NCBI GenBank assembly: GCA_023819375.1
Contig: JAMWDI010000008.1
Location: forward strand, 1 to 55,775
Source: Candidatus Omnitrophota bacterium
Lineage (GTDB): Bacteria; Ratteibacteria; UBA8468; B48-G9; JAFGKM01
Length of the DNA: 55,775 nucleotides
Direction: 5' to 3'
Shown: positions 20,986 to 47,858 of the stretch, in pieces
How positions within the stretch are numbered: position 1 is the first letter of the stretch
Layout of the letters: each line of letters begins with the position of its first letter
The notes under the pieces: model-generated
The model's database searches: none
The model's input: the letters and a program-made list of their open reading frames with translations, nothing else
Told to the model about the DNA's origin: nothing
Program-made: the position numbers and the translations under genes

Positions 20986-21024
20986 TTTTTTTTGAAGTAA
21001 TTTATTATTAAAGGGGTTTTACAA

Positions 21025-22857: not shown

Positions 22858-22864
22858 AAATTCT

Positions 22865-23707: not shown

Positions 23708-23745
23708 AAAATAGTAAAATATATAGGAAAAAAGAAAGGAGAAGA

Positions 23746-25017: not shown

Positions 25018-25018
25018 A

Positions 25019-26963: not shown

Positions 26964-27403
26964 TTATTATAGTTGGGAATGAAGATGATTTAAAATACAT
27001 AGAAGAAGCAGAAAATATATTAAAAGAGTTTGGAATTTATTATATTAAAAGAATTTTTTCTGGATTTGAAACTTTAGAACCAGTTTTTGATTTTATTGAT
27101 ATGGCTGAAAAAGAAAATTTTGATATTATAATTGTTTGTAGTGGAGTTTCAACACATCTTGCAGGAATCATTGCTTCAAGAACAACAATTCCAGTTATAT
27201 GTGTTCCTTTACCCACAAATAATATTGCAACAACAGATCTTATATATTCTTCTGTTCAAATGCCTGAAGGAGTTCCTGTCGCCTGTATGTCTTTAGGAAA
27301 AGCAGGTGTTAAAAATTCTGCAATTTTAGCGATAGAAATTCTTTCATTGAAAGATTCAAATTTGAAAGAAAAATTGAAAGAATTTAAAAAACAATATATT
27401 TAA
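26951..27403 (+). CDS. PurE-like protein lacking the canonical SAHR motif
   Basis: Protein of 150 residues that clearly follows the PurE (N5-CAIR mutase/AIR carboxylase) fold: IVGNEDD at 7-13, STHLAGI around H69 and SSVQMPEGVPVACMSLGKAG in the second half. Where PurE has the SAHRTPD loop carrying a catalytic histidine, this protein reads SGFETLE (residues 37-43), so that histidine and the arginine are absent. Either it is a divergent enzyme or a PurE-fold protein acting on another substrate. It starts inside the end of dapL (13-bp overlap) with no purK or other purine genes around, so involvement in amino-acid or cell-wall metabolism is possible. Confidence 0.75.
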   Translation: MGKIVIIVGNEDDLKYIEEAENILKEFGIYYIKRIFSGFETLEPVFDFIDMAEKENFDIIIVCSGVSTHLAGIIASRTTIPVICVPLPTNNIATTDLIYSSVQMPEGVPVACMSLGKAGVKNSAILAIEILSLKDSNLKEKLKEFKKQYI

Positions 27404-27423
27404 AATTTAAACAAGGAGGTAAA

Positions 27424-28494
27424 ATGGTTTATGCAAGATATAAAGATGGACTTGAAGTCAGTGAAGGAATTTTTAAAGTTCTTGCCAAATTTGCTCCTGA
27501 TGGAGTAATGGATGTTTTTGCTTCTGATCAGCATAGTTCCTATCTTAAACTTACAAATGCCTATTTAAAGCACATTGGCGAAAATAGAGAAGCAAACGAT
27601 GAAGACGTTAAAGAAGTTTGTATAAGATTTGCAAGACATTTAAAAGGCGAAGTTACTGCTGCTTTATTTAATCATCTTGCAATTTTAACTCCTGGATTTA
27701 AAGAAGCATTAGGTTCAGATATACTTTTAATTGGACGTCTTGAACATACAAAACCAATTGAACTTGATGGAGGCCTTGGTAAAGTTGCAAGATTAGCAAT
27801 AGAACCAGAAGAAATTGCTGATAAAGTTGATGCTTTTAAAACTTTAGTTTATCTAAATCCTGACCACAAAGAAAGTTGGGAAAAAAACAAAGAATGGCTC
27901 GCAAATGTTTTTGAAAAATGCAAAAAACTTGAAAAACCTCTTTATAACGAAACACTTCTTGCAGACTTACCAGGAGAAACAAAATTGGAAAAAGCAAAAA
28001 AATTACCAGATGCTTTAATAAAAATGGCTCAAGATTTTTCTCCGTTTGGCCATTTCTATAAAACACAGGTACCGGTTTTATGGGTAGAAGAAGATGGTAA
28101 AATTATTCAAGTTTGTTCTCCTCAAGTAGTAAGAGATGTTGCCAAAGAAATGGAAAAGATATCTCCAAGACCTATGCTTCTTTTGAGTGCTGCAGTTGAT
28201 TTTGAACAGTATGTAATCCAATATAGCTCTGTTTGTGATTTAGTCTCAGGCCCAATGTGTGGAAGAGCATATTTTAAAGAAGCATTCACTGATCCTGAAA
28301 CAAAAGATTGGGATTCCCTTGAAAATTCTTTTGTCAAAATAGCAATTCCAAGAATACGTCAAATAAGAACAATAACAAAAGTTATGTCAAAACCATGGTG
28401 GTATAAATTTGAATGGATAAGTGAAGAAGGGAAAAAACTTATAAAAGAAACAAGAGAAATTAAACCGGGTCTTAAAGCAGATTTTGGTTATTAA
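27424..28494 (+). CDS. Class I aldolase, tagatose-1,6-bisphosphate aldolase (LacD)-like
   Basis: Protein of 356 residues related to the LacD branch of the DeoC/LacD class I aldolases: FASDQHSSYLKL resembles the LacD start, FYKTQVPV holds the likely Schiff-base lysine K213, and LLSAAVDFEQYV followed by SGPMCGRAYFKEA matches the phosphate-binding C-terminal strands. It would cleave a ketohexose bisphosphate to triose phosphates. Five bases separate it from the phosphofructokinase gene, so together they plausibly make the upper part of glycolysis. A consensus AAGGAGGT (27413-27420) suggests strong expression. True fructose versus tagatose specificity is not decidable. Confidence 0.75.
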   Translation: MVYARYKDGLEVSEGIFKVLAKFAPDGVMDVFASDQHSSYLKLTNAYLKHIGENREANDEDVKEVCIRFARHLKGEVTAALFNHLAILTPGFKEALGSDILLIGRLEHTKPIELDGGLGKVARLAIEPEEIADKVDAFKTLVYLNPDHKESWEKNKEWLANVFEKCKKLEKPLYNETLLADLPGETKLEKAKKLPDALIKMAQDFSPFGHFYKTQVPVLWVEEDGKIIQVCSPQVVRDVAKEMEKISPRPMLLLSAAVDFEQYVIQYSSVCDLVSGPMCGRAYFKEAFTDPETKDWDSLENSFVKIAIPRIRQIRTITKVMSKPWWYKFEWISEEGKKLIKETREIKPGLKADFGY

Positions 28495-28499
28495 AATAA

Positions 28500-29465
28500 A
28501 TGAAAAAAATAGGTGTAATAACAACTGGTGGTGATGCACCTGGGATGAATGCTGCTATAAGAAGTGTTGTAAGGACAGCAATTTTTTACAACATTGAGGT
28601 TGTTGGAATTGTAGAAGGTTTCAAAGGCCTCTATGAAAAAAAATTTATTTCTCTGAATTCAAGAAGTGTAAGTGGAATAATAAATCAAGGTGGAACAATA
28701 TTAAAAACAAAAAGATTTTATGAATTTAAAAATAAACAAGTAAGAGAAACTTCTTACCAAAATTTAAAAAATGAAAATATAGAAGGACTTGTTGTTATAG
28801 GTGGCAATGGTTCAGCAGTAGGGGCATATCTTTTATATTCTGAATTTAATTTTCCAGTAGTTCATATTCCTGCATCAATAGATAATGATGTTTATGGAAC
28901 AGATTATACAATTGGATTTGATACAGCAGTAAATACAGCAATTGATGCAATTGATAAAATAAGAGATACAGCAACAAGCCATGAAAGGACATTTATAATT
29001 GAAGTAATGGGTAGAGACTGCGGAAATTTAGCGCTTGAAGTTGGAATAGTTTGTGGAGCAGAAATTGTTATTATTCCTGAAATAAAATTTGAAATAGATA
29101 AAATTGTTGAAGAAATCAAAGAAGAAGAAAAAAAGGGCAAAAAAAGTTGTATAATAGTTCTGGCAGAAGGTGCAGGAAAAGCAGAAGATTTAACAAAAAT
29201 TCTTAAAGAAAAATTGCCGGATAGAGAAATAAGATATACAGTTTTAGGTTATATTCAAAGAGGTGGTAAACCAACATATTTAACAAGAAAACTTGCTACA
29301 ATATTTGGAAGTAAAGCAGTTGAACTTTTAATAAGTGGCCAATATGGTTATATGATAGGTTTAAAGGGCGAAGAAATTATTTATGTTCCTCTTGTAGAAG
29401 TTGTAAACAACAAAAAATTGCCAAAATTTGAATATTTAGATATAATTCAAAAAATGTCAATTTGA
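28500..29465 (+). CDS. pfkA: 6-Phosphofructokinase
   Basis: Phosphorylates fructose 6-phosphate. The 321-residue protein has TTGGDAPGMNAAIR at the start, PASIDND with catalytic Asp128, IGFDTAVNTAIDAIDKIRDTA, and MGRDCG for substrate binding. Gly104 points to ATP rather than pyrophosphate use (PPi enzymes have Asp there), but the preceding residue is Asn103 where Escherichia coli PfkA has Asp103, a magnesium-ATP ligand. The phosphate donor is therefore not certain. It follows the LacD-like aldolase in the same transcript, with no Shine-Dalgarno sequence of its own. Confidence 0.9.
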   Translation: MKKIGVITTGGDAPGMNAAIRSVVRTAIFYNIEVVGIVEGFKGLYEKKFISLNSRSVSGIINQGGTILKTKRFYEFKNKQVRETSYQNLKNENIEGLVVIGGNGSAVGAYLLYSEFNFPVVHIPASIDNDVYGTDYTIGFDTAVNTAIDAIDKIRDTATSHERTFIIEVMGRDCGNLALEVGIVCGAEIVIIPEIKFEIDKIVEEIKEEEKKGKKSCIIVLAEGAGKAEDLTKILKEKLPDREIRYTVLGYIQRGGKPTYLTRKLATIFGSKAVELLISGQYGYMIGLKGEEIIYVPLVEVVNNKKLPKFEYLDIIQKMSI

Positions 29466-29467
29466 GG

Positions 29468-29473
29468 TATAAT
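29468..29473 (+). promoter_or_regulatory. -10 box of the tRNA-Cys promoter
   Basis: A perfect TATAAT lies 10 bases before the tRNA 5' end. The best upstream -35 match, TTCAAA at 29446-29451 with a 16-bp spacer, is weak and lies inside the end of pfkA. Confidence 0.5.
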
Positions 29474-29483
29474 TATTATATAA

Positions 29484-29555
29484 GGCCTGGTAGCCAAGCG
29501 GAAAGGCAGCGGTCTGCAAAACCGCTATACGCCGGTTCAAATCCGGCCCAGGCCT
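29484..29555 (+). tRNA. tRNA-Cys (anticodon GCA)
   Basis: A full cloverleaf can be folded by hand. The acceptor GGCCTGG (29484-29490) pairs with CCAGGCC (29548-29554); the anticodon stem GCGGT/ACCGC (29509-29513/29521-29525) encloses loop CTGCAAA with anticodon GCA at 29516-29518; the T arm GCCGG/CCGGC encloses TTCAAAT. The discriminator base is U, as expected for tRNA-Cys. CCA is not encoded. A run of six T (29555-29560) follows directly and may act in termination. It lies between pfkA and a convergent membrane-protein gene. Confidence 0.96.
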
Positions 29556-29562
29556 TTTTTAT

Positions 29563-30222
29563 TTAATTCAAATGATAATGTCCAAATTCTCTGCTTCTTT
29601 TAGTAAAAAGGAGAGGAAAAATAATATCACTTGTGCAACATGGAATAATAACTGCAAGAACCATATAAATTAAAACTGCACCTATTCTGTGTATCCAATC
29701 AAAAAGACCAAAACTTATAAGATAAAATATTGAAGCAACAGCGCTTATAAAAACGTGTAAAGAATGAGAAAAAATTACTCCTTCCGATTTTTCTAATGTT
29801 TCTGGGGCAACATAACCAATAAAAACTCCTAAAAATAAAAAGGGCAAGATAAGTTGTGGATGTTTTACTATACAAATATGAAGTTCCATTTTAACACCAA
29901 GAAGGAAACCTGAAATATAAGGAATAAAAATATCACTTATTCCACATATTCCAGCAGAACCCACAATTCCAATTAGAAATGCCTTTAAAAATTTTTTTTC
30001 GTGCTTCCAAAACATTGCTGTTGTTGCAAGTGCAGAAAATAACATATGGATTGGATGAAATACGTGAAAAATTTCTTCAAAATAATAACTTGGATTTTCA
30101 ATTCCAAATAATTCTGTTAAAAAAGTCATAATACTTGCAAATATAAGTCCAATAGAAACAGATAATACAGAAAACGGCAAATGATGAGTTAAAGATTCAA
30201 CAATATATTTAAATTTTTTCAT
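29563..30222 (-). CDS. Histidine-rich polytopic membrane protein in a metal-regulator operon
   Basis: Protein of 219 residues with about six hydrophobic segments and no family I can name. Several histidines sit in or beside membrane segments: SLTHHLPFS near residue 12, FHVFHPIHMLFSA around 48-60, and HSLHVFISA; a CC pair lies in the last segment and the C-terminus ends with HYH. It starts four bases inside the Fur-family gene, so the two are co-translated, and two further metal-linked membrane genes lie upstream. A role in metal transport or sensing is inference from context and histidine placement. Confidence 0.6.
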   Translation of the reverse strand: MKKFKYIVESLTHHLPFSVLSVSIGLIFASIMTFLTELFGIENPSYYFEEIFHVFHPIHMLFSALATTAMFWKHEKKFLKAFLIGIVGSAGICGISDIFIPYISGFLLGVKMELHICIVKHPQLILPFLFLGVFIGYVAPETLEKSEGVIFSHSLHVFISAVASIFYLISFGLFDWIHRIGAVLIYMVLAVIIPCCTSDIIFPLLFTKRSREFGHYHLN

Positions 30223-30680
30223 ATTTCACCCCCCTTCTGGCAATCTTTGCAAATTCCTTTAACAATTAAATAATGCTCTTTAATACTAAACCCTGTCTTT
30301 TTTTCAATTTCCTCTTTTAAATCTTCAAAATTACAAATATCAAAATCAAGCAATTTATGGCAGAAAGAACAAGTTATATGATGGTGATGTTTCTTTTTTT
30401 TAATCTTACAAATCCCATAGTAAAATCTATTTTCTTCTCCTTCAACTTTTGTTAATATACCTATTTTTTCAAATTTTTCTAAATTTCTGTAAACTGTTGG
30501 TAAACCAATTTTTTTAAAATTCTTCTTTAAATATATCCATACATCAAAAGGAGTAGCATATTTTCCACTTTTGACAAAGTAATCTATAATAGCAATCCTT
30601 TTTGGTGTTAACTTTAATTTGTTTCTTTTTAAAATCCTTGTATATTTTACTTTTTTATCATAAATAGAAATCATTTTCAT
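30219..30680 (-). CDS. Fur-family metal-responsive repressor
   Basis: Winged-helix regulator of 153 residues. The N-terminal half has KLTPKRIAIIDYF and the recognition-helix region GLPTVYRNLEKFEKIG. The C-terminal dimerisation domain has C104/C107 and C144/C147, the structural zinc site, plus four consecutive histidines at 98-101. Fur, Zur, PerR and Mur cannot be separated confidently; neighbours resembling the Zur-linked ycgR/ycgQ pair favour a zinc role. The ATG lies five bases from its -10 box, so the mRNA may be leaderless, possibly starting translation at Met1 or Met3. Confidence 0.88.
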   Translation of the reverse strand: MKMISIYDKKVKYTRILKRNKLKLTPKRIAIIDYFVKSGKYATPFDVWIYLKKNFKKIGLPTVYRNLEKFEKIGILTKVEGEENRFYYGICKIKKKKHHHHITCSFCHKLLDFDICNFEDLKEEIEKKTGFSIKEHYLIVKGICKDCQKGGEI

Positions 30681-30685
30681 TTAAA

Positions 30686-30714
30686 ATTTTAATTAAGAAA
30701 TTATTATCTGTCAA
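30686..30714 (-). promoter_or_regulatory. Promoter of the Fur-family gene and its downstream membrane gene
   Basis: Read on the minus strand, TTGACA (30714-30709), a 17-bp spacer and TAAAAT (30691-30686). The start codon at 30680 is only five bases beyond the -10 box. AT-rich sequence across the promoter could contain a Fur/Zur box, but I see no convincing palindrome. Confidence 0.65.
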
Positions 30715-30721
30715 GATTTTC

Positions 30722-30761
30722 AAAAAGAACCTCTCCTGCGGGGGTGAAACAGGAGAGGTTC
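30722..30761 (-). terminator. GC-rich hairpin with T-tract on the minus strand; terminator and possible dispersed palindrome
   Basis: A perfect 12-bp inverted repeat, GAACCTCTCCTG at 30727-30738 and CAGGAGAGGTTC at 30750-30761, with an 11-base loop. On the minus strand it is followed by TTTTT (30726-30722), fitting an intrinsic terminator for the permease/UPF0703 operon that ends at 30838, just before the fur promoter. On the plus strand it runs into seven G, then AGGAGGTG. The block 30727-30780 is about 63% GC in a 30% GC region, which suggests it may be a REP-like element recruited as a terminator. Confidence 0.7.
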
Positions 30762-30837
30762 GGGGGGGTTAGGAGGTGGAAGTTGATGAAGTAAAATTTT
30801 TGCTTATTATATAAATTATACCGCTACTGTAAAGTTT

Positions 30838-31539
30838 TTAATAAAGATATGGATCAGAAGGTGAACTTATTTTTTCTATTTCATCCGCATAAATTAAAAC
30901 TTTTCCTTGTTCAATTTTAACTTTTCCTTTCACTTTCACCCACTCTTCATTTCTTAATTCTTCTTTCTTTTCATATTTAACTTCAATACCAAGTGGTGTA
31001 GCATCAGCAGCACAACAAATTACTAAAAACCTTATCAATGTGAATTTATCTTTTTCTTCTCCTTTAAACACAATTCCTTCTACCACAATATCTTTTTCAT
31101 TAATCTCTTCTGGTTTTGACTTAGCAAAAGTAAGTATTTGCTTTATTGTTAATTTTTTATATTTTCCTTCTGTTTCTATTTTTTCTTGAAGGGATCTTAA
31201 AATACTTTCACTGATTGACAATTCTGTCTGTATCCCTCTTTTTAAAGCAGCATAAGTTGGTAAATTACTCGGCCTTGTAAGACAGACAAGAATTAAAGGG
31301 AATAAAAAAATGACAAAGGAAAAAATCTCATATACATCTATTTCTTTAAAAATCTTTATCCTTTTTGATGTTACAAAACAAAGACATGAAAGAATTACTA
31401 TTCCTGTTAAAATATAAGGAAAATAAAATTTCTTCACAAATATTCTATAATTACCTGTCAAAGAAAGAACAAGGAAACTTACAAAATAGAGAAAACATAT
31501 TAGAAAGTTATAAAATTCCTTATTTTTAAAAATCTTCAT
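30838..31539 (-). CDS. UPF0703/DUF1980 (YcgQ-like, TIGR03943) membrane protein
   Basis: Protein of 233 residues. Residues 8-105 hold about four membrane segments; the C-terminal soluble part includes a strand-rich domain with RFLVICCAADATPLGIEV, the signature of the TIGR03943 family. Members are almost always paired with a PF03773 permease, as here, with a two-base gap. In Bacillus subtilis the pair ycgR-ycgQ belongs to the zinc (Zur) regulon. The two cysteines in the signature could bind metal, but no transport activity has been firmly shown. Confidence 0.82.
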   Translation of the reverse strand: MKIFKNKEFYNFLICFLYFVSFLVLSLTGNYRIFVKKFYFPYILTGIVILSCLCFVTSKRIKIFKEIDVYEIFSFVIFLFPLILVCLTRPSNLPTYAALKRGIQTELSISESILRSLQEKIETEGKYKKLTIKQILTFAKSKPEEINEKDIVVEGIVFKGEEKDKFTLIRFLVICCAADATPLGIEVKYEKKEELRNEEWVKVKGKVKIEQGKVLIYADEIEKISSPSDPYLY

Positions 31540-31541
31540 TT

Positions 31542-32543
31542 TTATATTCCTTTAATAAAACTTCCAACAACTCCAAGAACGAATAATGTAAGAAATACAC
31601 TTATAAGTAATTTTTTCACAAATTTTTCTTTAAAAACAGCAAAATAAACAATCATAAGCGAAATACTCATCATGGGTCCAGAAATCATAAAAATAATTTT
31701 AGACATTGATGACATATAAGTAAATGAACTTGCAACAAAAGCATCTGCATAGGAACATAATGAAAGAAGAATTGATAAAATTTGCATTGATAGAATTGAA
31801 ATTATTTTATTTCTACCAATCATAAGAAAGAAATCCCTTGAAATTAAAGTAGAAAATAATGAAGCAAGAGTAGCCCCAATAATTAAATATTTCCCCATAA
31901 TTAAAAAGTCGTGTAATGCATGAGTAAAAATTTCCTGAAATTTAGGTATATGTTTTAAATTTTCATGTTCCTCTTTTTCATATTTCTTTAGAATTTCATC
32001 CTTTTCTTTTGGAGCGATTAAAATACCAACAAAAACACTACAAATAAAAGCAATAAGAAATCTGCCAAATACCATTTTAATAGAGGAAAAAGCAAGATAA
32101 GTTGAAAATAAAGTAATTGGATTTATTATTGCAGTTGCAAGTAAATATGAAATACTTCCTGCAGGTGGTACTCCTTTTTTAATCAATCTTCTCGTAACTG
32201 GAATTTCGCCACATGAACAGACAGGAAATAAAAAACCCAAAAATGAACCAATAAATGCTGACAAAAATCTGTTTTCAGGGAAAAATTTTTTAAATTTTTC
32301 TTCTGAAACAAAAACTTCAATTAGACCTGAAATAAATGAACCAATCAAAATAAAAGGAAATCCTTCAATCAAAATAGCAAAAAGAATTATAACAAAAACT
32401 TGAAGTTTTGGATTTTGAAAAATTTTATTAATTTCAGACAAAGTCCCTGATTGCCACAAATTTATAATTATAAAGAAAAGAAAAACTCCCAAAAAAATCA
32501 AAATTTTTTTTAAATTTTCTTCTTTTCTTTTTTGTGTTTTCAT
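31542..32543 (-). CDS. PF03773-family permease (YcgR/YraQ/ArsP-like)
   Basis: Polytopic protein of 333 residues with about eight to ten membrane segments and a cytoplasmic loop near 200-225. The signature FPVCSCGEIPVTRRL (C109 and C111) is followed by GVPPAGSISYLLATAIINPIT, and a second conserved block CSYADAFVASSF lies in the C-terminal half. Relatives include ArsP, an organoarsenical exporter, and YcgR, a zinc-regulon protein. The partner gene immediately downstream favours the YcgR-type metal role. First gene of a two-gene operon ending at the hairpin terminator. Confidence 0.85.
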   Translation of the reverse strand: MKTQKRKEENLKKILIFLGVFLFFIIINLWQSGTLSEINKIFQNPKLQVFVIILFAILIEGFPFILIGSFISGLIEVFVSEEKFKKFFPENRFLSAFIGSFLGFLFPVCSCGEIPVTRRLIKKGVPPAGSISYLLATAIINPITLFSTYLAFSSIKMVFGRFLIAFICSVFVGILIAPKEKDEILKKYEKEEHENLKHIPKFQEIFTHALHDFLIMGKYLIIGATLASLFSTLISRDFFLMIGRNKIISILSMQILSILLSLCSYADAFVASSFTYMSSMSKIIFMISGPMMSISLMIVYFAVFKEKFVKKLLISVFLTLFVLGVVGSFIKGI

Positions 32544-32568
32544 TTTAGATTTTTATACTTTATAAATA

Positions 32569-32597
32569 AATTTAAAAGCAATTTCCCAAATTGTCAA
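32569..32597 (-). promoter_or_regulatory. Promoter of the permease operon
   Basis: On the minus strand, a perfect TTGACA (32597-32592), a 17-bp spacer and TAAATT (32574-32569, four of six matches). The gene starts 25 bases downstream. A 14-bp AT-only palindrome at 32599-32612 lies just upstream of the -35 box and could be chance or an operator. Confidence 0.45.
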
Positions 32598-32662
32598 CTA
32601 TTAAATTTAATATTGGAAAATTTAAAATTTTGTGATATTTTATTTTAAAAAGGAGGAATCAA

Positions 32663-33736
32663 ATGGAATTAAAGAAAGAATGTAAATATGCACTTTTAGT
32701 TCCTACAAGTATGGGAGTTAGAATTACACCTTTTAATATGCAACCTGTTCATACAAGCAACCTTTACATAATGCAGGCAACAAGTGCGGAATCAAATGTA
32801 GCAAGTGTTATTTCCTATTTAGGATTACCGGTTAAAGTTTTAACTGCATTTGTAAAAGGAAGCCCAATAGCAAGATTTATAAAAGAAAGTTTAAAGAGTA
32901 GGGGAATGGACATTGAAGCAAAAGAAGTTCCCCAAGGAGGTCCGTGGGGTTTTAGACATCAATTTAATATTGCTGACACTGGCTATGGAACAAGAGCACC
33001 AAGAGTCTGGAATGATAGAGCAGGAGAAGTAGGAAGAACTTTAAAAGCAGAAGATTTTGATTTAGAAAGAATTTTTGGAAAAGAGGGTGTCTGTATTGTT
33101 CATATGTCAGGGCTTTTTGCAGCATTATCAGAAGATACAGGTAATTTCTGTCTTGAGATAGCAAGAGTTGCAAAAAAATATGGGACAAAAATTTCTTTTG
33201 ATTTGAATTACAGAGCATCTTTTTGGAAAAATAGAGAAAGTCAATTAAGAGAGATATTTACAGAAATTGCAAAAATAACAGATATTCTTGTTGGTAACGA
33301 AGAAGACTTTCAATTATGTCTCGGGATAGAAGGACCTGAACCTGGAGGGAAAAACATTAAGATACAAATAGAAAATTTTAAAGGCATGATAGAAAAAGCA
33401 AAAAAAATATTTCCAAATGTAAATGTTTTTGCAACAACACTAAGAGAAGTAATAAGTGCACAACAGCATCTATGGGGAGCAATAATGTCTGTTGGGGATA
33501 GATGGTATGTAATAGAACCAAGGGAAATATTTGTTCTTGACAGAATAGGCGGAGGAGATGCTTTTGTCGGAGGTCTTCTGTATGGAATTCTAAAAGGTTG
33601 GGAAGAGGAAAAATGGATTCAATTTGGATGGGCTTGTGGTGCTTATGTTGTAACTTTATTAACTGATTATGCTCAAGTCCTTGATGAAGAAGAAATCTGG
33701 AATGTCTGGGAAGGCAATGTCAGAGTTAAAAGATAA
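32663..33736 (+). CDS. PfkB-family sugar kinase (2-keto-3-deoxygluconate kinase-like)
   Basis: Ribokinase-fold kinase of 357 residues. The anion-hole and catalytic signature IGGGDAFVGGLLYGIL is at 295-310 with catalytic Asp299; the substrate side includes SAESNVASVISYLGLPVKVLTAF. Overall pattern resembles KDG kinases, and an SDR resembling mannonate oxidoreductase lies 12 kb downstream, which would fit uronate breakdown, but specificity is inferred. AAAAAGGAGG gives a strong start. Its last eleven codons plus stop lie in one copy of a perfect 35-bp direct repeat, the other copy being 5 kb downstream. Confidence 0.82.
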   Translation: MELKKECKYALLVPTSMGVRITPFNMQPVHTSNLYIMQATSAESNVASVISYLGLPVKVLTAFVKGSPIARFIKESLKSRGMDIEAKEVPQGGPWGFRHQFNIADTGYGTRAPRVWNDRAGEVGRTLKAEDFDLERIFGKEGVCIVHMSGLFAALSEDTGNFCLEIARVAKKYGTKISFDLNYRASFWKNRESQLREIFTEIAKITDILVGNEEDFQLCLGIEGPEPGGKNIKIQIENFKGMIEKAKKIFPNVNVFATTLREVISAQQHLWGAIMSVGDRWYVIEPREIFVLDRIGGGDAFVGGLLYGILKGWEEEKWIQFGWACGAYVVTLLTDYAQVLDEEEIWNVWEGNVRVKR

Positions 33737-33738
33737 TT
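33704..33738 (+). repeat. Left copy of a perfect 35-bp direct repeat (3' end of the pfkB-type gene)
   Basis: Begins GTCTGGGAAGGC and ends TTAAAAGATAATT; it is identical base for base to 38745-38779, with mismatches immediately outside on both sides. It covers the last codons and the stop (33734-33736) of the PfkB-family kinase gene. The arrangement resembles an integration event that regenerates a gene end. Confidence 0.95.
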
Positions 33739-33865
33739 ATTTTTAGTTATTTGAAGATATTTTTCCATTTTGTCAAGTTTTTTTTAAACATTTCTAATAC
33801 TTTAACAGACAAAGGTTTTAGTCATTAGAAAATATGAATTTTATTATGAAAATAAAAATTTATGG

Positions 33866-33893
33866 TATAATATAATTAAACTTGTACGGACAA
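33866..33893 (+). promoter_or_regulatory. -10 box and AraR-like operator before the GntR/LacI-type regulator
   Basis: TATAAT at 33866-33871 is followed, around the expected transcript start and leader, by the interrupted palindrome TTGTACGGACAA at 33882-33893. Bacillus AraR, which has the same GntR-DNA-binding/LacI-sensor architecture as the product of this gene, binds operators with the core TTGTACGTACAA, differing at one base. Its position just before the ATG fits autorepression. No good -35 box is seen. A 10-bp direct repeat AACAGACAAA also occurs at 33804-33813 and 33892-33901. Confidence 0.6.
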
Positions 33894-33900
33894 CAGACAA

Positions 33901-35028
33901 ATGAAAAAATTAATAAAATACGAACCAAAATATAAACAGATAAAGAAAATTATAAAAGAGAGAATATCTAAAGGTATATATAAGGAAGAAGAAAGAATTC
34001 CTTCAGAATATCAATTAATAAAGGAATTTAATGTAAGTAGACATACAATTTTGAAAGCATTATCTGAATTAATAGGAGAAAATTATATTTACAGAATACA
34101 TGGAAAAGGAACCTTTGTATGTAGTAATCACAAAAGAAGAAAAAACAAGATTGCTGTGCTTGTTTATCATTCTGAAAATATATACTTTTCAAAAATAATT
34201 AGAGAAGCAGAAAATTTTGCCAACAAAAAAAATTATCATTTAATTCTATGTAACACTATAGGAGATTTTGAAAAAGAAACAAATTATATAGAAAAGTTGC
34301 TTCCAGAAGTTGATGGATTTTTAGTATGTTGTTGTTATAAAAATAAAAAAATATCGGATGGTCTTAAAAAATTAATAAAAAATGAATTCCCTTTTGTTTT
34401 ATTTTCTCATATCCCTGAAATTAAAAATATTGACAAAATTGATTATGTTATTCCAAATTATTTTGAGGGAATGTATAAACTTGGTAAATATCTAATTAAA
34501 AATGACTATAGAAATTTTATATTTATTGTAGAGAAAAATGGATTAAAAAGAACCGAAATTCAAGAAAGATTAAAAGGATTAAAACTATCTATTAAAGAAG
34601 AAAACTTAGAACATAATCTTAAACTATTTGAAATTTCAGATAGAGATGCAATGAATGGATATATGAATGACGGTTATGAAGCAAGTAAAAATTTGATTAA
34701 TTATATTTCCAAAGATAGAAAAACGTGTATTGTATGCATGAATGATAGTATATCTATTGGAATCATTATGGGATTAAGAGAAAAAGGCGTAAGAATTCCA
34801 GAAGATGTTGGTGTAACAGGTTTTGATGATATCACCCCACTAAGTATTAATTTCAAATTAACTACTGTTTCTACTTCAATATATGAAATGGGAAGAAAAG
34901 CGATGGAATTACTAATCGAAAAAATTGAATTTGTTAACCATAAACCGCAACATATTATATTGCCCTATGAACTGAAAATAAGAGAAACTACTATGACCGA
35001 AAAATTAAAAGAGGAGATAAAATTGTGA
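33901..35028 (+). CDS. AraR-like transcriptional regulator (GntR winged helix plus LacI-type sensor)
   Basis: Protein of 375 residues. Residues 10-78 are a GntR-type winged helix (YKQIKKIIKERISKG, FNVSRHTILKALSELI, YRIHGKGTFV). From about 85 it is a periplasmic-binding-protein-like sensor of the LacI/GalR type, including CMNDSISIGIIMGLREKGVRIPEDVGVTGFDD and the TTVSTSIYEMGRKAMELL end. Such regulators bind sugars and release DNA. It is the first gene of the repeat-flanked cassette, and an AraR-like operator precedes it. It has no Shine-Dalgarno sequence. Likely target: itself and the downstream prepilin/lipoprotein genes. Confidence 0.88.
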   Translation: MKKLIKYEPKYKQIKKIIKERISKGIYKEEERIPSEYQLIKEFNVSRHTILKALSELIGENYIYRIHGKGTFVCSNHKRRKNKIAVLVYHSENIYFSKIIREAENFANKKNYHLILCNTIGDFEKETNYIEKLLPEVDGFLVCCCYKNKKISDGLKKLIKNEFPFVLFSHIPEIKNIDKIDYVIPNYFEGMYKLGKYLIKNDYRNFIFIVEKNGLKRTEIQERLKGLKLSIKEENLEHNLKLFEISDRDAMNGYMNDGYEASKNLINYISKDRKTCIVCMNDSISIGIIMGLREKGVRIPEDVGVTGFDDITPLSINFKLTTVSTSIYEMGRKAMELLIEKIEFVNHKPQHIILPYELKIRETTMTEKLKEEIKL

Positions 35029-35066
35029 AAAGACAATTTTTATAAAAAAGAAAGGAGGTGATCGAA

Positions 35067-35756
35067 ATGAAAAAAAATAAAAAACATGGTTTCACATTAA
35101 TAGAGTTGTTGGTAGTGGTTGCCATAATCGCTATTTTGGCAGCCATGTTATTACCAGCACTTTCAAAAGCAAGAGAGAAAGCCAGATCTGCTACATGTAT
35201 GAGTAATTTAAAACAAATTGGAGTTGCCTTTCTTATGTATGCCCAAGATTATGATGAATATTTAATTCCACTTTATTCAGGGGATTCTAATAGTTCCTAT
35301 AACTGGTGGCCTGCAATAGCAGTTAATTACTTGGTTAAAAGATCTGGAGGAGCTTCAGGAGGATATGCAATGGAAAAATATCAAGGGAAACTTAACTGTC
35401 CAAATCTTTATAGAAAAGGCTATTATTGGATGACAGGTTATGCACTTGCAGATACTTACATCAGTCCGAGGAAATTATCAAAAATTAAAAATCAACATCT
35501 TAAAGGAATGATAGCTGACTCTCCATGGGATGGTAACAGATGGGCATGGGTCTTTTATCCATATCTTACACCTATAACGTATGAATCAACTTCTACAAGT
35601 CACAGAAATAGAATAGTGCTAAGACATAATAATTTGGCTAATCTTCTCTATGTGGATGGACATGTTGAACAATTAGATATGAATAAATGGAAAAGTATGC
35701 TTGGTCCAGGAACTTGGAGTGATATTTATAAAACTTACTGGGATGCATATTTTTAA
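35067..35756 (+). CDS. Type IV prepilin-like protein of the H-X9-DG class
   Basis: Residues 8-32 form the class III signal [19 protein letters not shown] with cleavage expected after Gly8 and Glu5 of the mature protein conserved, then a hydrophobic helix. The C-terminus has the pattern H-x9-DG followed by HVEQLD, characteristic of the abundant pseudopilin-like family in Planctomycetes and Lentisphaerae. At 229 residues it is complete. The frame opens earlier at a GTG inside the ribosome site, but ATG 35067 follows a perfect AAAGGAGGTGAT (35051-35062), implying very strong translation. Found between a sugar regulator and a glycan-binding lipoprotein, it may be a surface component of polysaccharide capture. 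Confidence 0.9.
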
Positions 35757-35798
35757 TAATTTTTGGAAGTATAGGAAAAAATTATAAAGGAGGAATTT

Positions 35799-38744
35799 AT
35801 GTGTTTTAAAAATATAAAGGAGATTGCTTTATTTTTATTTATACATTTGATTTTTTTGTTATCATGTGAAAACCTAAAACCAGAAATTTACTATTCTTTT
35901 GAGGAAGAAATAGAATCTATGATATATAATAAAGAAAATGATAAATTTACAGCGATAGGAACAAATTTAGAAAAAGTAGAGGGAGTTGTTGGTAAAGGAG
36001 TAAGATTCAATGGTGTAAATAGTTATATAAAAACAGGAATAATTGATTTAAAAAATACTGATTATAGTTATGAAGTTTGGATAAAACCTGAAGATGATTT
36101 TTCAAAGGGAGAATTTTATATATTTGGACCTCAACAATGGGATCAGATGGGACTTAAAATAAAAAATAATGTGATAAGAATGTGGCATAGAAAAGGGGGA
36201 ACGTGGGATAAAGGTGGTGGAAAATTTATTTCAATTTCTGCATATTATGAATTTAAAAAAGACATTTGGTATCATGTAGTAGGAACTTTTAGTACTAAAA
36301 ATGGCATGGCTTTATATGTAAACGGTGAATTAGTTGCTTTAAATCCCTACGCAAATGAACCTTCTGATTGGCATATATGTTTAATAGGAGCAGGAACAAC
36401 TTATGGTAGGGTAAAAGAAGAAGAATATTCTGGAGCATTACATAGTTTTTTTAAAGGTATCATTGATGAAGTGAAAATTTATAGAAAAGAATTAAACTCT
36501 AAAGAAGTTAAAACAAGTTATATAAATACAAAATCTTTCAAAATTGTTTTTAATGGTAAACCTATGGCTGATATATTAATTTCAGAAAATGCCACTCCTT
36601 TAATAAATTTTTCCGCTGATGAATTACAGAAATATATAAAGAAAATTACAGGTGTTGAAATTCCAGTAGTTAAAATTAGAGATTTTAAACAACTGGAGAG
36701 TTTATATGAGTTTCATATTGTAATTGGTGAGAATGAATTATCGAAAACAAAAAATCTTACAACTGAAAATCTTAAAACAGATGGTTATATAATAAAAAGA
36801 GAAAAAAATATGATATTTATTTTGGGAAAAGATACTAACTTAGATCCCAAAACTCACCATACAAAATGGTTAGGAAGTGCTGGAACTCTATATGGAGTAT
36901 ATAAATTACTTGAAATTCTCGGAGTCCGCTTTTTCTTCCCGGATGAAGAATTAGAAGTTATTCCTAATAAGAAAGAACTTTTTATTACTGATGATTTAGA
37001 GACAATAGAAAATCCATATTTCCGCATGAGATTATGTTGGGGTTTAAATACAGAATGGACAAGAAAAATAGGATATGGGGGTGATGAAGATGCTTGGGCC
37101 TCGGGTCATACTTTTGAAGGGAAAAGGAGTGGAATAAATTTTTGGACATTATATAAAGATACTAATCCCGAATTTTTTAGCATAGACAAAAATGGTAGGA
37201 TTTATAATCATATTGCTTTTCCCCATAAAGGAGTCATAGATAAAATTGTTGAACATGCAGAGGATTATTTTAAGAAAGGAAGAAATTTTTTTATAGTGTG
37301 TCCTAATGATTATTTTATGGATATATGTTCTTGTGATTTATGTCAATCAAAAGTTGATAAATCAAGAGAAGAAACTGGAATCTATTCTAACTATGTAGGA
37401 GAAGCAGTTATAGAAGTTGCAAAAAGATTGAAGAATAAATTTCCAGATAAATATATTGTATATCTTGCATATGAAAAATATTTATTACCACCAACTATTG
37501 TTGAAAAATTACCCGAAAATGTAGTTTCATTAATAGCATTTCCCTGTCTTGATAAAATTAAAAAAGGAAAATTAAATTTGGGAGAGCAAATAATTGATGA
37601 AACAAAATATAATCTTATAGAAGATTGGCAAAATTTAAAACCCCAAAGGATTTATCTTCTAGAATATTATACTTTTGGAAATAACTTTATTCCAATTTTT
37701 ATTCCTCATTTAATTTCTCAGCATATAAAGAAGTTAAAAGAAATATCTGAAAAAGTTAATTTTTCCCAAATAAGTGGTATGGGAATTTTTACAGATTCTG
37801 TTCGTAAAGAAAATTTTTGGTGGTATGCTATTAATCATTACGTAACTGCTAAATTATTATGGAATCCAGAATTAGATGTAGATGAAATATTAGAGGATTT
37901 TTATTTGAATTTCTTTGGTCCAGCCTATGAGGATATGAAGAAAATGTTTGAATACATAGAATGTCTTTATTATAGAAATCCAAAGAGAGCTATATATAAT
38001 AAGGACGAAGTTGAATTTATTATTAATTGTGTTGAAAAAGCAAAACAAAAAGTAGAAGGGACAGTATATGAAAAAAGAGTAAAGTATATTGACGATGGAC
38101 TTTTTGGTTTAAAGAGTTTAAAACAAAAATTAACTTATGAGAATTTAGAACTTTCAAAGGATAATTTAATTGTTTTTTATGATTTTTCAGGAAAAAATGA
38201 AGAATTAGTAAAAAACAAAGTCAACGAAATGAAATATGAAGGTATAATATCAAATGGAAAACTTCTTTATGATGAAGAATTAAAAAAAGAAGTTTTATTT
38301 TTTAATGGAAAAACCTTTATAGACATAAAAGGTGGTGTTAATTTAAAGGATAAGGATTACTTAATATTTGTAAAGTTCAAACTTGAAAGTTTACCATCAG
38401 AAAAAGAAACATTTTATATTTTAGGACCAGAGATGTGGGATAGGATTGGATTAAAATTAATAGGGAAAAAGGTAGAATTTATACATAGAAATAATGGGAG
38501 ATTTATAAAAATAAATGCTTATTTAGAAGATATAACTCCATCAAAATGGTATGAGATTGTTGTAACATTTAGTAAAAAGGATGGAATGGCCATTTATCTT
38601 GATAAAAACCTAATTTCGTATAATAACCTTATGAACTTACCAGCATCTTGGTCTTTGAAATATATAGGAGCCTCTGGACATCCAGAAGGAATGATTGGTT
38701 ATTTCAAAGGATGGATTTCTGAGGTAAAAATATATGTTTTTTAG
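35799..38744 (+). CDS. Lipoprotein with LamG domain, DUF4838 and second LamG domain
   Basis: Protein of 981 residues. The N-terminal signal ends in lipobox LLSC with Cys23 as lipidation site. A LamG/concanavalin-like domain spans about 30-245; an alpha-glucuronidase N-terminal-like region (FSADELQKYIKKITG) spans about 255-385; DUF4838 (PF16126; GVYKLLEILGVRFFFPD, then CPNDYFMDICSCDLCQS) spans about 370-700; a second LamG fills 780-981. The two LamG copies share wording such as FYI-GP-WD and DGMA/NGMA-IY, an internal duplication. It probably binds and perhaps cleaves uronate-containing glycans at the cell surface. AAAGGAGG at 35786-35793 precedes the ATG. Confidence 0.85.
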   Translation: MCFKNIKEIALFLFIHLIFLLSCENLKPEIYYSFEEEIESMIYNKENDKFTAIGTNLEKVEGVVGKGVRFNGVNSYIKTGIIDLKNTDYSYEVWIKPEDDFSKGEFYIFGPQQWDQMGLKIKNNVIRMWHRKGGTWDKGGGKFISISAYYEFKKDIWYHVVGTFSTKNGMALYVNGELVALNPYANEPSDWHICLIGAGTTYGRVKEEEYSGALHSFFKGIIDEVKIYRKELNSKEVKTSYINTKSFKIVFNGKPMADILISENATPLINFSADELQKYIKKITGVEIPVVKIRDFKQLESLYEFHIVIGENELSKTKNLTTENLKTDGYIIKREKNMIFILGKDTNLDPKTHHTKWLGSAGTLYGVYKLLEILGVRFFFPDEELEVIPNKKELFITDDLETIENPYFRMRLCWGLNTEWTRKIGYGGDEDAWASGHTFEGKRSGINFWTLYKDTNPEFFSIDKNGRIYNHIAFPHKGVIDKIVEHAEDYFKKGRNFFIVCPNDYFMDICSCDLCQSKVDKSREETGIYSNYVGEAVIEVAKRLKNKFPDKYIVYLAYEKYLLPPTIVEKLPENVVSLIAFPCLDKIKKGKLNLGEQIIDETKYNLIEDWQNLKPQRIYLLEYYTFGNNFIPIFIPHLISQHIKKLKEISEKVNFSQISGMGIFTDSVRKENFWWYAINHYVTAKLLWNPELDVDEILEDFYLNFFGPAYEDMKKMFEYIECLYYRNPKRAIYNKDEVEFIINCVEKAKQKVEGTVYEKRVKYIDDGLFGLKSLKQKLTYENLELSKDNLIVFYDFSGKNEELVKNKVNEMKYEGIISNGKLLYDEELKKEVLFFNGKTFIDIKGGVNLKDKDYLIFVKFKLESLPSEKETFYILGPEMWDRIGLKLIGKKVEFIHRNNGRFIKINAYLEDITPSKWYEIVVTFSKKDGMAIYLDKNLISYNNLMNLPASWSLKYIGASGHPEGMIGYFKGWISEVKIYVF

Positions 38745-38779
38745 GTCTGGGAAGGCAATGTCAGAGTTAAAAGATAATT
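38745..38779 (+). repeat. Right copy of the perfect 35-bp direct repeat
   Basis: Identical to 33704-33738. It begins with the base after the TAG stop of the DUF4838 gene and ends one base before the stop codon of the convergent RACE gene. The pfkB TAA stop within it (38775-38777) has no reading frame attached, so this copy is a non-coding remnant or the ancestral junction. Confidence 0.95.
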
Positions 38780-40396
38780 TCAAAAATACATGTTTTCTGC
38801 AAGTAAAAAATTAAAATTAGGTTCTATCTCATTTGTCCTTATATGTTCAACTTTTTGAACAATTTCTTCTACAATTTTCCTTTTTTCATAACATAATAAA
38901 ACTTCTCTTGCTCCTTCAAGGGAACCATTCCCTATTTTTATTACTTTATTTTTATCAACTTCAGGAAGTAAACCAATTTTCATAGCATTTTCTATATTTA
39001 TAAAATTTCCAAATCCACCTGCAATAAAAATTTTATCAATGTTTTTAATATCAATAGGATAAATTTTAGAAAGAATTTGCCAACTTGTTCTTATTGCTGA
39101 CTTTGAAATTATTAGTTGAAATATATCTTGTTGAGTTATTTTTATATCGTCTGTTATATAAAATTCACCATTTTTAAGTCGTGCTTTTTCATTTATTATT
39201 CCATTTTTTAACATTTCACTCAAAAGATCTATCAATCCAGAACCGCATATTCCAATAGGATACTTATCCCCAATAGTAGAATAATAGACCTTTCCATTTA
39301 TTATTTTAACTTCTTTTATTGCTCCTTCTATTCCTCCAACTCCACAACTTATATTCACTCCCTCAAAAGCACCTCCAGCAGCAGCAGAAGTGGCAAGGAT
39401 TTTATCTTTATTTCCTATTACAATTTCTCCATTTGTTCCTATGTCTATAAGCATGCACACTTTTTCTTCTTTATAAATTTCTGATGCTAAAATATCGGCA
39501 ACAACGTCAGCACCAACATGTCCTCCTATTAAAGGCAATCCATAAATTTCTCCATTTTTATTTATTTGCAATCCTATTTCTTCTGGTTTTTTTACTATAC
39601 TTTCTGGATTAAGTGGTTCATAAGGTATTTTACCAAGAGTAGATATATCAATGAGAAAAAATATATTTCTCATTGCAGAATTGCCAGCAACAACAATCTC
39701 ATAAATTTTGTCTAATATATCACTATTAAATTTTCTTAACTCTTCATTTATTAAATCAACAACAGATCTCTGCAATTCAACCAATTTTTCCCTTCTTTCT
39801 TCTTCTTTCAAAAATCTTTTTTCTTTTTTATCAATCATTGTATATTCAATTCTTGAAATTACATCATTTCCATAAACAATTTGAGGATTTGTTCTTGCAA
39901 TAGTTCCGACAATATCTCCATTTTCAAGATTAACTATATTAAAAACAATTGTAGTTGTTCCAATATCAAGTGCAATTCCATAAATTCCACCTTTATAATT
40001 TTCAATTTCTACCTCATTTTTATATACCTTCCCATTTTTTGTTTTAAAAAGAGGATATATTTCAACCTTTTTTTCTAATCCACTTTTCAATATTTCATAT
40101 TCTCCAAAATCTTTTATATAAACAACAACATCAGAGACATTTCTAACAATTTTTGTTTGACATGCAAGTCTATATTCTTCTGATAAATTAAATTTTTTTT
40201 CAGAGGAAGTTTTAGAATTTAAGTTTTCTTTCCCTTTTTCAATTCTAACAATACACTTTCCACATTTTCCAATTCCTCCACATTCTGCGTTTATCTTTAT
40301 TTTTAATTTTTGTGCATAATCAAGAATTGTTGATCCAGGATGAATTTCAAAACCATCTTTACCATTCTTAAACTGAGGAAAATATATCTTACCCAT
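38780..40396 (-). CDS. Ferredoxin-ASKHA protein (RACE/RamA-like, DUF4445)
   Basis: Protein of 538 residues. Residues 1-90 are a plant-type [2Fe-2S] ferredoxin domain with C39, C45, C48 and C79. The remainder is an ASKHA-fold ATPase: GIALDIGTTTIVFNIV, AGNSAMRNIFF, GGHVGADVVADILAS, LIDIGTNGEIVIG, SAAAGGAFEG and AGGFGNFI. COG3894 members reductively reactivate corrinoid proteins that drift to Co(II). No corrinoid protein, methyltransferase or dehalogenase gene is in the window, so its client is unknown. It abuts the isomerase gene without any gap. Confidence 0.88.
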   Translation of the reverse strand: MGKIYFPQFKNGKDGFEIHPGSTILDYAQKLKIKINAECGGIGKCGKCIVRIEKGKENLNSKTSSEKKFNLSEEYRLACQTKIVRNVSDVVVYIKDFGEYEILKSGLEKKVEIYPLFKTKNGKVYKNEVEIENYKGGIYGIALDIGTTTIVFNIVNLENGDIVGTIARTNPQIVYGNDVISRIEYTMIDKKEKRFLKEEERREKLVELQRSVVDLINEELRKFNSDILDKIYEIVVAGNSAMRNIFFLIDISTLGKIPYEPLNPESIVKKPEEIGLQINKNGEIYGLPLIGGHVGADVVADILASEIYKEEKVCMLIDIGTNGEIVIGNKDKILATSAAAGGAFEGVNISCGVGGIEGAIKEVKIINGKVYYSTIGDKYPIGICGSGLIDLLSEMLKNGIINEKARLKNGEFYITDDIKITQQDIFQLIISKSAIRTSWQILSKIYPIDIKNIDKIFIAGGFGNFINIENAMKIGLLPEVDKNKVIKIGNGSLEGAREVLLCYEKRKIVEEIVQKVEHIRTNEIEPNFNFLLAENMYF

Positions 40397-41263
40397 TTAT
40401 GCGAGGTCAGACCTTGTAAAAATTTTATTCCAGATTTTTAAAAGATATCCCCCAACTAATCTAACTGCTATTTCGTCAGGTAGTTCGTTTACCCTTTTAT
40501 TAAACGGTTCAGGTGTGACAGGCCCTTCATATCCAATTTCTTTTAATATTTTCAAAAATTTTTCTGCATCAATAACTCCAGTCTCTCCTGGTAAAAATCT
40601 TTCGTTATCTAATAAATTTTCCTTCGGTATATTTGGTGCATCATTAATATGGACACAGATTATATCTTTTCCTTTTAGGCTTTTTATATTTTCCATTTCA
40701 CAACCAGAAGCATATAAGTGCCAACTGTCAAGCAAAATCCCAATATTTTCCATATTTATTTCTTTAACTAAATACAAAGTTTGTTCTAAATTCCAGATAA
40801 ACTCATATTTATGTCCTTCTCTTTCTTTTTTTGTTCCAACAAATTCAATCCCCAGTTTACACTCATATTTTTCCATAATTTCACATATTTTTTTAATTCT
40901 CTTTTTATGTATTTTAAAATTTTCTTCATAGGGTATTTCATCTGAATAAGGTTTTATCCAAGTATAAACTCTATAAGCAGAAATTTTTTGAGCAATTTCC
41001 AAATATTTTTTTAATTTTTCAAGGTTTTCATTGAATTTATTTTCATCAATATCAATATTAAAAGGTAAATCCCATCCACCAATTTTTATATCAAAATAAT
41101 CAAATAAATTTTTAATTTTTTCAACTCTATCATTTTTTGAAAATTCAAAACATTCAATAATTGAAATATCCATACCTTCAAAATTTCCCAGTTTTGCAAG
41201 TCTTAATTTTTCAAGTAAAGTTGTTTTTATGTTTATTGCGTCAGGAGATAAATTTCTAAACAT
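40397..41263 (-). CDS. Sugar phosphate isomerase/epimerase family TIM-barrel protein
   Basis: Protein of 288 residues of the xylose-isomerase-like (AP endonuclease 2) superfamily. Metal-ligand stretches can be seen: LGIEFVG (Glu), IGILLDSWHLYASG (Asp, His), VCVHINDAP-type IICVHINDAP (His, Asp) and GPVTPEPFN (Glu). Members isomerise or epimerise sugars, keto-sugars or inositol derivatives. It sits one base from a GH106-like glycosidase gene and directly before the RACE gene, so a role in using the released sugar is likely; the substrate is unknown. Confidence 0.82.
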   Translation of the reverse strand: MFRNLSPDAINIKTTLLEKLRLAKLGNFEGMDISIIECFEFSKNDRVEKIKNLFDYFDIKIGGWDLPFNIDIDENKFNENLEKLKKYLEIAQKISAYRVYTWIKPYSDEIPYEENFKIHKKRIKKICEIMEKYECKLGIEFVGTKKEREGHKYEFIWNLEQTLYLVKEINMENIGILLDSWHLYASGCEMENIKSLKGKDIICVHINDAPNIPKENLLDNERFLPGETGVIDAEKFLKILKEIGYEGPVTPEPFNKRVNELPDEIAVRLVGGYLLKIWNKIFTRSDLA

Positions 41264-41264
41264 A

Positions 41265-44200
41265 TCATCTTTCCTCTTTAATTATTATTTCTGGATTTTT
41301 CATTAACCCACACGGAATTATCTGATATTCATCTATCCATTGATTTCCTTCTGAAACAAATTGCCCAGGACCTGTCCATTCTGGCCATTTCTCAAAGTAG
41401 TGTAAAGGTCCATGTGAGTTTCTTCTATGTCCAAGAATTTCTATAATTAGATTAAATTCTTCCTTTACAAAATCCGTTATTTCAATCTCATAGGGTGGCC
41501 AACCGATTATTCCAACTTCTTTCCCATTTATTATAACTCTTAAACCAACTCCTCTAAAATCAGAAATTTTCAAAAATATTTTTTGATTTTCTTTAAAATC
41601 AATTTTATCAACATTGAAGACATAACCCAAATTTCCTGAGTAAAAAGGCAATCCTTGAAGAGTCCAATCACCTATTTTTAATTTTTCAGGTAAAGATGTT
41701 ATTATTAAATTGCCTTCTTCAATTTTAACACCAAAATCTCCAAGTAAATAAATAATTTCAAATCCCGGATGGTCTTCACTATAATTGGTTTTAAGTAAAA
41801 TTTCATTTTTTCCAACATTTAATAAAGATGAAGAAAAATTAATTTTTTCCAACGATTTGTCAACCCACCAACCATTTTTCATATCTGGAAACAATTTATA
41901 TCTATTAATGTAAATTTCATAAAGTTCTGGCTTTTCAATTGCAATTGACATTCCTTTATTTGGTATTTTTTCAACATAAAATTCATATTTCAAATCAACT
42001 TCTATATTTTTTAAATTCACATTTTTTTTCCTTGCCCATGGTTGAACCATTGCACCACCTCTTTCTTGAATTCCTAAATATTTCCTAACTTCTTTATCAA
42101 CCTTTAAAATTTCTAATTTTCCCTTCCATTCATTATCTCCAATTTTAAAATAAGGCATATCAAGAACTAAAACATTTGGTTCATTTAAAATATAGTCAAC
42201 TTCTTCTTGCTTTATTTCTTCTTTTTTTATTTCAATATATTTCTTTTTCTCCTTTATATCAATGTTTATTCCTTTTTTGGGTATCACATATAGATGACTT
42301 TCAATAGGAGAAAAATCTGTTTTAATCACAAACCCATTTTCTTTTTTTATTATATCTGGATAAAAATAATTACCACTCACAGGATCAATTTCAATGGGTT
42401 TATACTTCCAGTCAGGATAACCTTTAATAATTACATTTTTAAACTCTTTTTTTCTTTCTCTAACAGGGTAGTATTTTTCAATATTTTCCCACTCCATGCC
42501 TGTATTACATACAAAAAGGTAAAAGTTATCTTCATCTTCTCTTAAAAGATATAAAATTTCTTTTATTTCATTATCATTTTCATCCTTTATTGAAACTCTT
42601 CTTATTTCCTCAAGATAGGTAATTGCTTCCTCAAAGTTAGAAACAATAATACATCCTTCTGCAAATTTTTTAACTTCATTTGAAAATTCACAATCAACAT
42701 ATGAAGGAACTTCTTTTACAAATATAATTTTTCCTCCTTTTTCTTTAAATTTTTTCAGTAATTTTAATGTTGAACTTCTAATTGTTATTAAAGGTGGAAC
42801 CAAAACATATTTATAGTTCGCTTTATTAACTTTTAAAATTGTTTCACCATTTTCTTCTATAACTTTACTCCACCTTGACAAAATTTCTTCATCTCCATAA
42901 TCAAAATCAATATGAGCAGAAAGAAGGACATCACACAATTTAACATACATTTCATCAAGTTTTTTTATATCTTCTGAATAAATAAATTCTTTCTTATTTT
43001 CGTCCCACTTAGGCATTTTATAAATAGCCCACATACTTTCAATTGGATGAATTACTAAAAGATCTCTTATCTCTTTTCCTTGTGTCATGATTAAATGAAT
43101 CCTTGCAAAATAATCTTCAACATATTTGTAATAATTCCACCAAGGAGATTGATAAAAAATACTTGCTGGATAATCTCTTTTTGCTTCGCCAAGCATGGTA
43201 TACCAAGAAAGATGTTGACATCTTAAGTTTATACCAAGAGCGACTTGCCAATCACCAAGTGCTTTATGTCCTGCAAATGGAAAGTCCCACCCTGTGCAAC
43301 CATATGTTTCTGTAAGTCTCCACTTTCTCTCAAATTGTCTTGCAACTGAACTTACTTGTTTTGCAGTGTTAAATATCCTTCGATGTTCTGTAAGTAAATC
43401 CATACCAGGTGCTTGCATATGTTCATAAAACCTCATACAACTTCCAACAACGTGTGCTTGCCTTAAAAGAGTATCTTCTGCAAGTATATGGCCTGTAAAG
43501 AGTAAATTATTTCTTTCACACCATTCACCAATCTGTTTTGCAAAACTTTCAACAAAAAGATAAGTTATACAGTCAAAATAGTGGTATCTTACTTTTGAAA
43601 TTTCTTTATTTTCTAAATCAAAATAGATTTCTGGTAAATATTCTAAAATGTCATATCCGTATCTTTTTTTAAATATGAATGGTAACTTTTCTGTCCAAGG
43701 AATTGCAATTGAAATTTCTTTTTCTGTAGGTGGATCATAATGAAAGTAAACATTGCCATAATTTGGTTCATCTGTAAAAATCCCAGGAATTATAGATCCA
43801 AAATATTTTCCACAATATTTCTTATAATTCTCATGAGTAACCTTAATAAACTTCCTCACTGCTTCTGGATTGAGCGTATCAAGATATGTATAACCATTAT
43901 ACCACCGACTTTTTTTAGAAATTTTCACAGAAAAAACCAGAATTTTTTCTGATGAAGATAAATTTTTTATCTTTTCATTTTTTTTAACCTTTCTATATTT
44001 CTTTATAATATTTTCTTCAAATTCGGTAATAAAAACACCAATTACATTTTTTTTCCAATCAATTTTATTTTTATCGTTTATTATAGTCATAACAAGATGC
44101 CTCATTCTAAATTTTTTATCTTTTGTAACAAGACCACCAGCAAAACCAGAAGGCCACCTATCTTCATCATATAGATAAGCAAGCATACCTATTTTTTTAC

Positions 44201-44432: not shown

Positions 44433-44485
44433 TTTGTTTTTTCCTCTTTTTTAATCAATAATTTTATTCCAAGTTTCAAAAAAAG

Positions 44486-44491
44486 TAAAAT
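44486..44491 (+). promoter_or_regulatory. -10 box of the radical SAM/ATP-grasp operon
   Basis: TAAAAT ends six bases before the ATG at 44498, with no Shine-Dalgarno sequence between, again predicting a leaderless transcript. The -35 region is weak (TTTTAT-like near 44463). Confidence 0.4.
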
Positions 44492-44497
44492 ATTTCT

Positions 44498-46334: not shown

Positions 46335-46336
46335 AA

Positions 46337-47842: not shown

Positions 47843-47858
47843 ATAAAGGAGTGTAAAA

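Follow-up and report, generated by a model that had tools for sequence, protein, structure and literature searches.

Recent gain of a regulator-prepilin-DUF4838 operon, with duplication of a kinase gene end, in a Candidatus Omnitrophota genome

The window analysed here, a stretch of 55,775 nucleotides from a Candidatus Omnitrophota bacterium (assembly GCA_023819375.1, contig JAMWDI010000008.1), contains a 5006-bp segment (33739-38744, forward strand) that was gained recently in the lineage of this species, after its split from the five sampled congeners, and that is accompanied by a target-site-like duplication of 35 bp. The segment is an operon encoding an AraR-like regulator, a prepilin-like protein, and a secreted protein with a DUF4838 domain, and it separates a pfkB-family carbohydrate kinase gene from its convergent neighbour, which encodes a RACo-type reductive activator of corrinoid proteins (RACE). 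Both features of a lineage-specific insertion with target duplication are present, namely single-copy empty sites in the relatives, all five of which are missing the segment, and a second repeat copy that stems from the host's own target.

The filled site and its empty counterparts

The repeat, GTCTGGGAAGGCAATGTCAGAGTTAAAAGATAATT, is an exact direct repeat of 35 bp on the forward strand (left copy 33704-33738, right copy 38745-38779), and the sequences diverge directly beyond both of its ends, confirming the pair described in an earlier note on this DNA. With the base composition of the window, the chance expectation for such an exact pair is 1e-9, and the longest exact repeat in third-order Markov shuffles (20-55 kb of sequence) measures 16-20 bp, the top of the null being 19-20 bp. 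The 35-mer occurs twice in the 1.73-Mb, 13-contig assembly, both times at the insertion locus. The left copy consists of the final 33 bases of the kinase gene (32663-33736, forward strand; PF00294, E 8.5e-19), including the stop codon TAA (33734-33736), followed by TT; the best NCBIfam matches of the kinase are partial, fall under the cut-off, and are to sugar kinases of the KDG-kinase and iolC types. The right copy, now non-coding, begins one base past the TAG of the DUF4838 gene (35799-38744) and finishes one base short of the stop of the RACE gene at 38780 (38780-40396, reverse strand; PF14574, PF17651, PF00111).

In five of five available congeners, nothing separates the kinase gene from the convergent RACE gene, and their stop codons abut or nearly do so; the target of the 35-mer occurs there only as a single-copy empty site. 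The window and the congener G001 are colinear over 16830-33739 and 38745-55551 (~34 kb), with the 5.0-kb insert as the sole large gap. Joining the flanks with one repeat reproduces the congener arrangement, except that the two-base gap holds an additional two T; the true length of the duplication could therefore be 33 to 35 bp. The earlier note had proposed an insertion and had predicted that excision with one repeat would bring the kinase stop to two bases from the RACE stop. The empty sites of the relatives, with their single copy and precise boundaries, bear out the insertion. Both repeats would be expected in deep branches were the arrangement an old one, and all five congeners are empty.

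The repeat copies themselves indicate the direction and age of the change. Repeat positions 3, 12, and 18 are C in both, and none of the five congeners shares these bases, indicating that the right copy duplicates the host's own sequence. At four-fold degenerate sites of the kinase gene, the congeners are 32-50% different from this species; the right copy, being non-coding, would be expected to have diverged had it existed since the origin of the genus, and since it is still exact, the copy is young. In a tree of the kinase and RACE, the empty-site congener G005 falls outside this species (support 0.82), with the other four congeners inside, so that one gain is a simpler account than two losses.

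The inserted operon and a homologue in another family

All three inserted genes lie on the forward strand, and their domain matches agree with the gene contents that had been read from the translations. The regulator (33901-35028; PF00392, PF13377, PF00532) joins a GntR helix-turn-helix (HTH) domain to a LacI-type sugar sensor, the architecture of AraR. It is followed by a type IV prepilin-like protein with N_methyl and DUF1559 domains and an H-X9-DG motif (35067-35756; PF07963, PF07596, TIGR02532), and by the DUF4838 protein, which is predicted to be secreted and carbohydrate-related and contains two LamG-like domains and a GH67-N-like stretch (35799-38744; PF16126, PF13385 in two stretches, PF03648). 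Just upstream of the regulator start is a candidate AraR-type operator, TTGTACGGACAA (33882-33893, no strand assigned).

The AraR operator consensus of B. subtilis is At(T/A)tGTaCGTAcaa(A/T)T (PMC4218819), and the candidate box fits its core (PMC4218819). The two features of an AraR-type regulator are both present: a GntR HTH and a LacI-type ligand domain in one protein, and a palindromic TTGTACG(T)ACAA operator-like box. The inserted regulator has the same domain architecture as AraR of B. subtilis, which acts on TTGTACGTACAA operators, and has the operator-like box directly upstream; however, AraR of B. subtilis governs arabinose catabolism, whereas the inserted regulator, by its position, controls the prepilin and the DUF4838 protein instead. 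The module is transcriptionally self-contained. The regulator would repress its own operon, itself included, until its sugar ligand is present, and the prepilin and the LamG/DUF4838 protein may then act on a glycan at the cell surface.

A homologous operon is found on contig C6 of G021, a genome from another family of the same order, where the same three genes occur in the same order, with 69% DNA identity over 4.9 kb to 33879-38726 of the window. A near-identical operator-like box, ACTTGTACGGTCAACA, precedes the G021 regulator. The G021 operon runs beyond the DUF4838 gene into a URO-D-like gene and a glycosidase-like gene, whereas the segment in the window stops at the DUF4838 stop codon and its protein is without the last residues of the G021 version. 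Because the operon continues in G021 and ends at this stop codon here, the comparison fits a captured operon fragment, not an element with conserved ends. Insert and window have the same GC content (0.273 and 0.273), so composition gives no pointer to a distant donor. No carrier of the cassette was found among viral contigs or phages; the DUF4838 gene does not occur in phage records, and plasmids gave distant matches alone. A 43-bp match between the left end of the insert and contig C3 was considered as a shared element terminus and dismissed as chance, being AT-rich and located inside an mnmG-like coding gene.

Prepilin modules elsewhere in the genome and in relatives

AraR-like GntR/LacI regulators directly upstream of H-X9-DG-type prepilins are expanded in this genome (G000), repeating a one-regulator-one-prepilin design many times over. 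There are 54 prepilin-like and 19 regulator matches, and in 14 of the 19 cases the regulator precedes a same-strand prepilin by no more than ~210 bp; examples, by contig (C), are C1:16596-17711, C2:14362-15384, C7:581-1594, C9:32805-33830, C12:18199-18990, and C13:104766-105566. We scanned for isolated long direct repeats in module-bearing stretches (labelled L), covering ~680 kb of the own genome (~50 prepilin loci) and 657 kb by the DUF4838 genes of relatives. The scan yielded one further candidate, a 34-bp pair on contig C3 of the own genome, and no flanking duplications around DUF4838 genes in the 657 kb of relatives. The earlier note had suggested that the insertion might represent a general route by which prepilin/glycan modules spread, and that other cassettes flanked by gene-end duplications might be found in the same genome; nearly all the other modules lack long flanking repeats, and one doubtful further pair in ~680 kb, with none in 657 kb of relatives, does not sustain a general route.

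The exact 34-bp repeat (G000:C3:94882 and 100823; L195 4883-4916 and 10824-10857) brackets a GH42-like/prepilin module beside tRNA-Ser(TGA). It is at most a possible second insertion, as its final 12 bp are part of a dispersed sequence with further copies on C9 and C10; the pair encloses an IS110 remnant, and congeners show rearrangements in this neighbourhood. The dispersed sequence (AGGNAGATANGATATTGNGACAGTAATATATGGCTAAGAG...) is ~100 bp long and occurs at L195 4904-5007, L206 ~9447-9538, and L264 ~8072-8164, two of these three places being beside prepilin genes; it is perhaps an insertion-sequence relic. Longer repeats in L199, L203, L206, L261, and L316 proved to be gene duplications or shared prepilin N-termini, and those in L288/L290 a dispersed repeat of another genome. 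L199 (contig C7, 10972 bp) carries near-identical copies of a regulator and prepilin at 677-1719 and 9930-10972, 9253 bp apart and at both contig ends, each regulator copy having a stop within its search alignment; these copies could be a recent duplication, a tandem array, or the assembly of a circle.

A further difference from a congener concerns the neighbourhood of the RACE gene. The RACE and TIM-barrel genes, contiguous in the window, are split in the congener G005 by a 9.6-kb block of glycogen genes (contig C60; L335 4840-14430), comprising glgC, galT, glgA, GH57, and glgB together with a two-component pair, all named from sequence. It was rejected as a similar insertion, having no flanking repeat.

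Mode of insertion and its meaning

We favour, with a probability of roughly 0.6, an illegitimate, one-off insertion without a dedicated mobile-element enzyme. Linear DNA bearing the operon would have been captured at a break with staggered ends of ~35 nt, which would then have been filled in; alternatively, replication may have switched from the chromosome to the foreign piece, copied it, and come back 35 bp upstream. The 35 bp at the insertion point were duplicated, such that both convergent neighbours kept their stop codons. Retention of the insert is probably explained by the promoter, operator, and ribosome-binding sites that came with it and by the tolerance of convergent gene ends to insertions. 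Terminal inverted repeats are absent from the segment (best 20-mer match 12, null mean 12.6), and Pfam matches reveal no recombinase or transposase domains in the three inserted genes; the features of a DDE-type transposon are therefore lacking.

Variable segments flanked by short direct repeats are known from E. coli, S. aureus, and S. pyogenes, and illegitimate recombination is regarded as their main source; such repeats accompany 10-18% of variable segments there, and 66-94% of the repeats are under 30 bp (PMC2884548). The segment described here is likewise present or absent between conserved genes, with a short direct repeat and no mobility gene, but its repeat is at the long end, and its polarity is a gain with duplication, not a loss between old repeats. 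Several points count against a one-off capture: a duplication of 35 bp is long for a random break, the 34-bp pair by another prepilin module of the same genome could hint at a shared stagger length, and no donor closer than the G021 version was found.

The earlier note had compared the insertion to att-site integration. For this the segment would have to be a non-autonomous integrative element, with the 35 bp as att core and the circular cassette integrated by a tyrosine or serine recombinase in trans, which we consider rather doubtful. Elements without their own recombinase, mobilised via shared att sites, are known, and the insertion lies at a gene 3' end, restores the gene, and has a core length typical of gene-end att sites. 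It shares its direct repeat, restored gene, and intervening cargo with the integrative elements found at the 3' ends of tRNA genes, rlmH, guaA, and icd, and with their cis-mobilisable relatives; however, it encodes no recombinase, has no matching one in the genome, and its core occurs only at this locus. Further tyrosine recombinases occur in congeners, and this genome has three. The sole phage-type integrase resides with a primase-like gene in an 8.3-kb integrative element (G000:C12:146.3-154.6 kb; L327 10312-18631) at tRNA-Ser(GCT), whose 19-bp att repeat is unrelated to the 35-mer; of the other two, one passes the XerC and XerD cut-offs, and the other is Xer-like by length only. Thus no site-specific recombinase for the 35-mer was found in the insert, and the phage-type integrase uses another core, although serine recombinases were not searched for genome-wide. 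In addition, both copies bear the bases of this species, so an att-carrying circle would have to stem from the same species, and the core is used at no second site in the genome. The data do not support the proposed att-like integration, though an integrase might have acted in trans. Just inside the 8.3-kb element is a cluster of short repeats (CCCCACCCTTAAGAACTATATATTTT and variants; G000:C12:146.6-147.3 kb, L327 10640-11300) that is not a regular CRISPR array.

Transposition of prepilin modules in trans, by an integrase that is unknown or Cas1-like and leaves a fixed, exceptionally long target duplication of 34-35 bp, is quite improbable. It would explain why two modules of one genome are flanked by exact repeats of 35 and 34 bp with unrelated sequences, and CRISPR-type integration does duplicate a whole repeat. 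Against it, the inserted segment is without terminal inverted repeats, the 34-bp repeat ends in 12 bp of dispersed sequence, no empty site was found for that pair, and there is no other case in ~1.3 Mb of module-bearing stretches. Casposons and other Cas1-type integration share target duplication and some preference for gene 3' ends, but the insert is without Cas1 or terminal inverted repeats (cas1 was not searched for genome-wide), and its duplication measures 35 bp instead of the 14-15 bp of casposases (PMC6614799). That an unknown integrase moves Omnitrophota prepilin/glycan modules in trans, leaving 34-35-bp duplications and needing no terminal inverted repeats, is very unlikely; if true, the two repeat-bracketed modules in this genome would be the most recent that it produced, and the many without brackets would date from earlier, their repeats having decayed.

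Homologous recombination offers an equally remote prospect. Thirty-five bp is short for RecA-dependent recombination, which weighs against a single-crossover insertion of a circular molecule already carrying the kinase 3' end. Such an event would yield exactly the observed structure, and E. coli has been observed to gain duplications through single crossover with circular DNA (PMC3240628); however, a circle bearing the kinase end of this very species would be required, leaving the first insertion unexplained. We give the least credence to an assembly artefact, or a chimera of the chromosome with a small circle that has 35 bp in common with it. The genome is metagenome-assembled, but its assembly comprises 13 contigs, final joins usually rely on k-mers or overlaps longer than this repeat, the GC content of insert and window is the same (0.273 versus 0.273), and the cassette is found nowhere else in the assembly. 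Misassembly is unlikely.

The insertion cleanly illustrates a kind of gene gain that is already known and does not speak for a new mobile element, and by itself it does not account for how prepilin modules became so numerous in these genomes. As a datable gain in an uncultured phylum it is unusually clean, with filled and empty sites, exact boundaries, and a visibly host-derived duplication, and the process behind the duplication, whatever it was, now has a testable length of 33-36 bp. A complete regulator-prepilin-glycan-protein operon can be gained in a single step.

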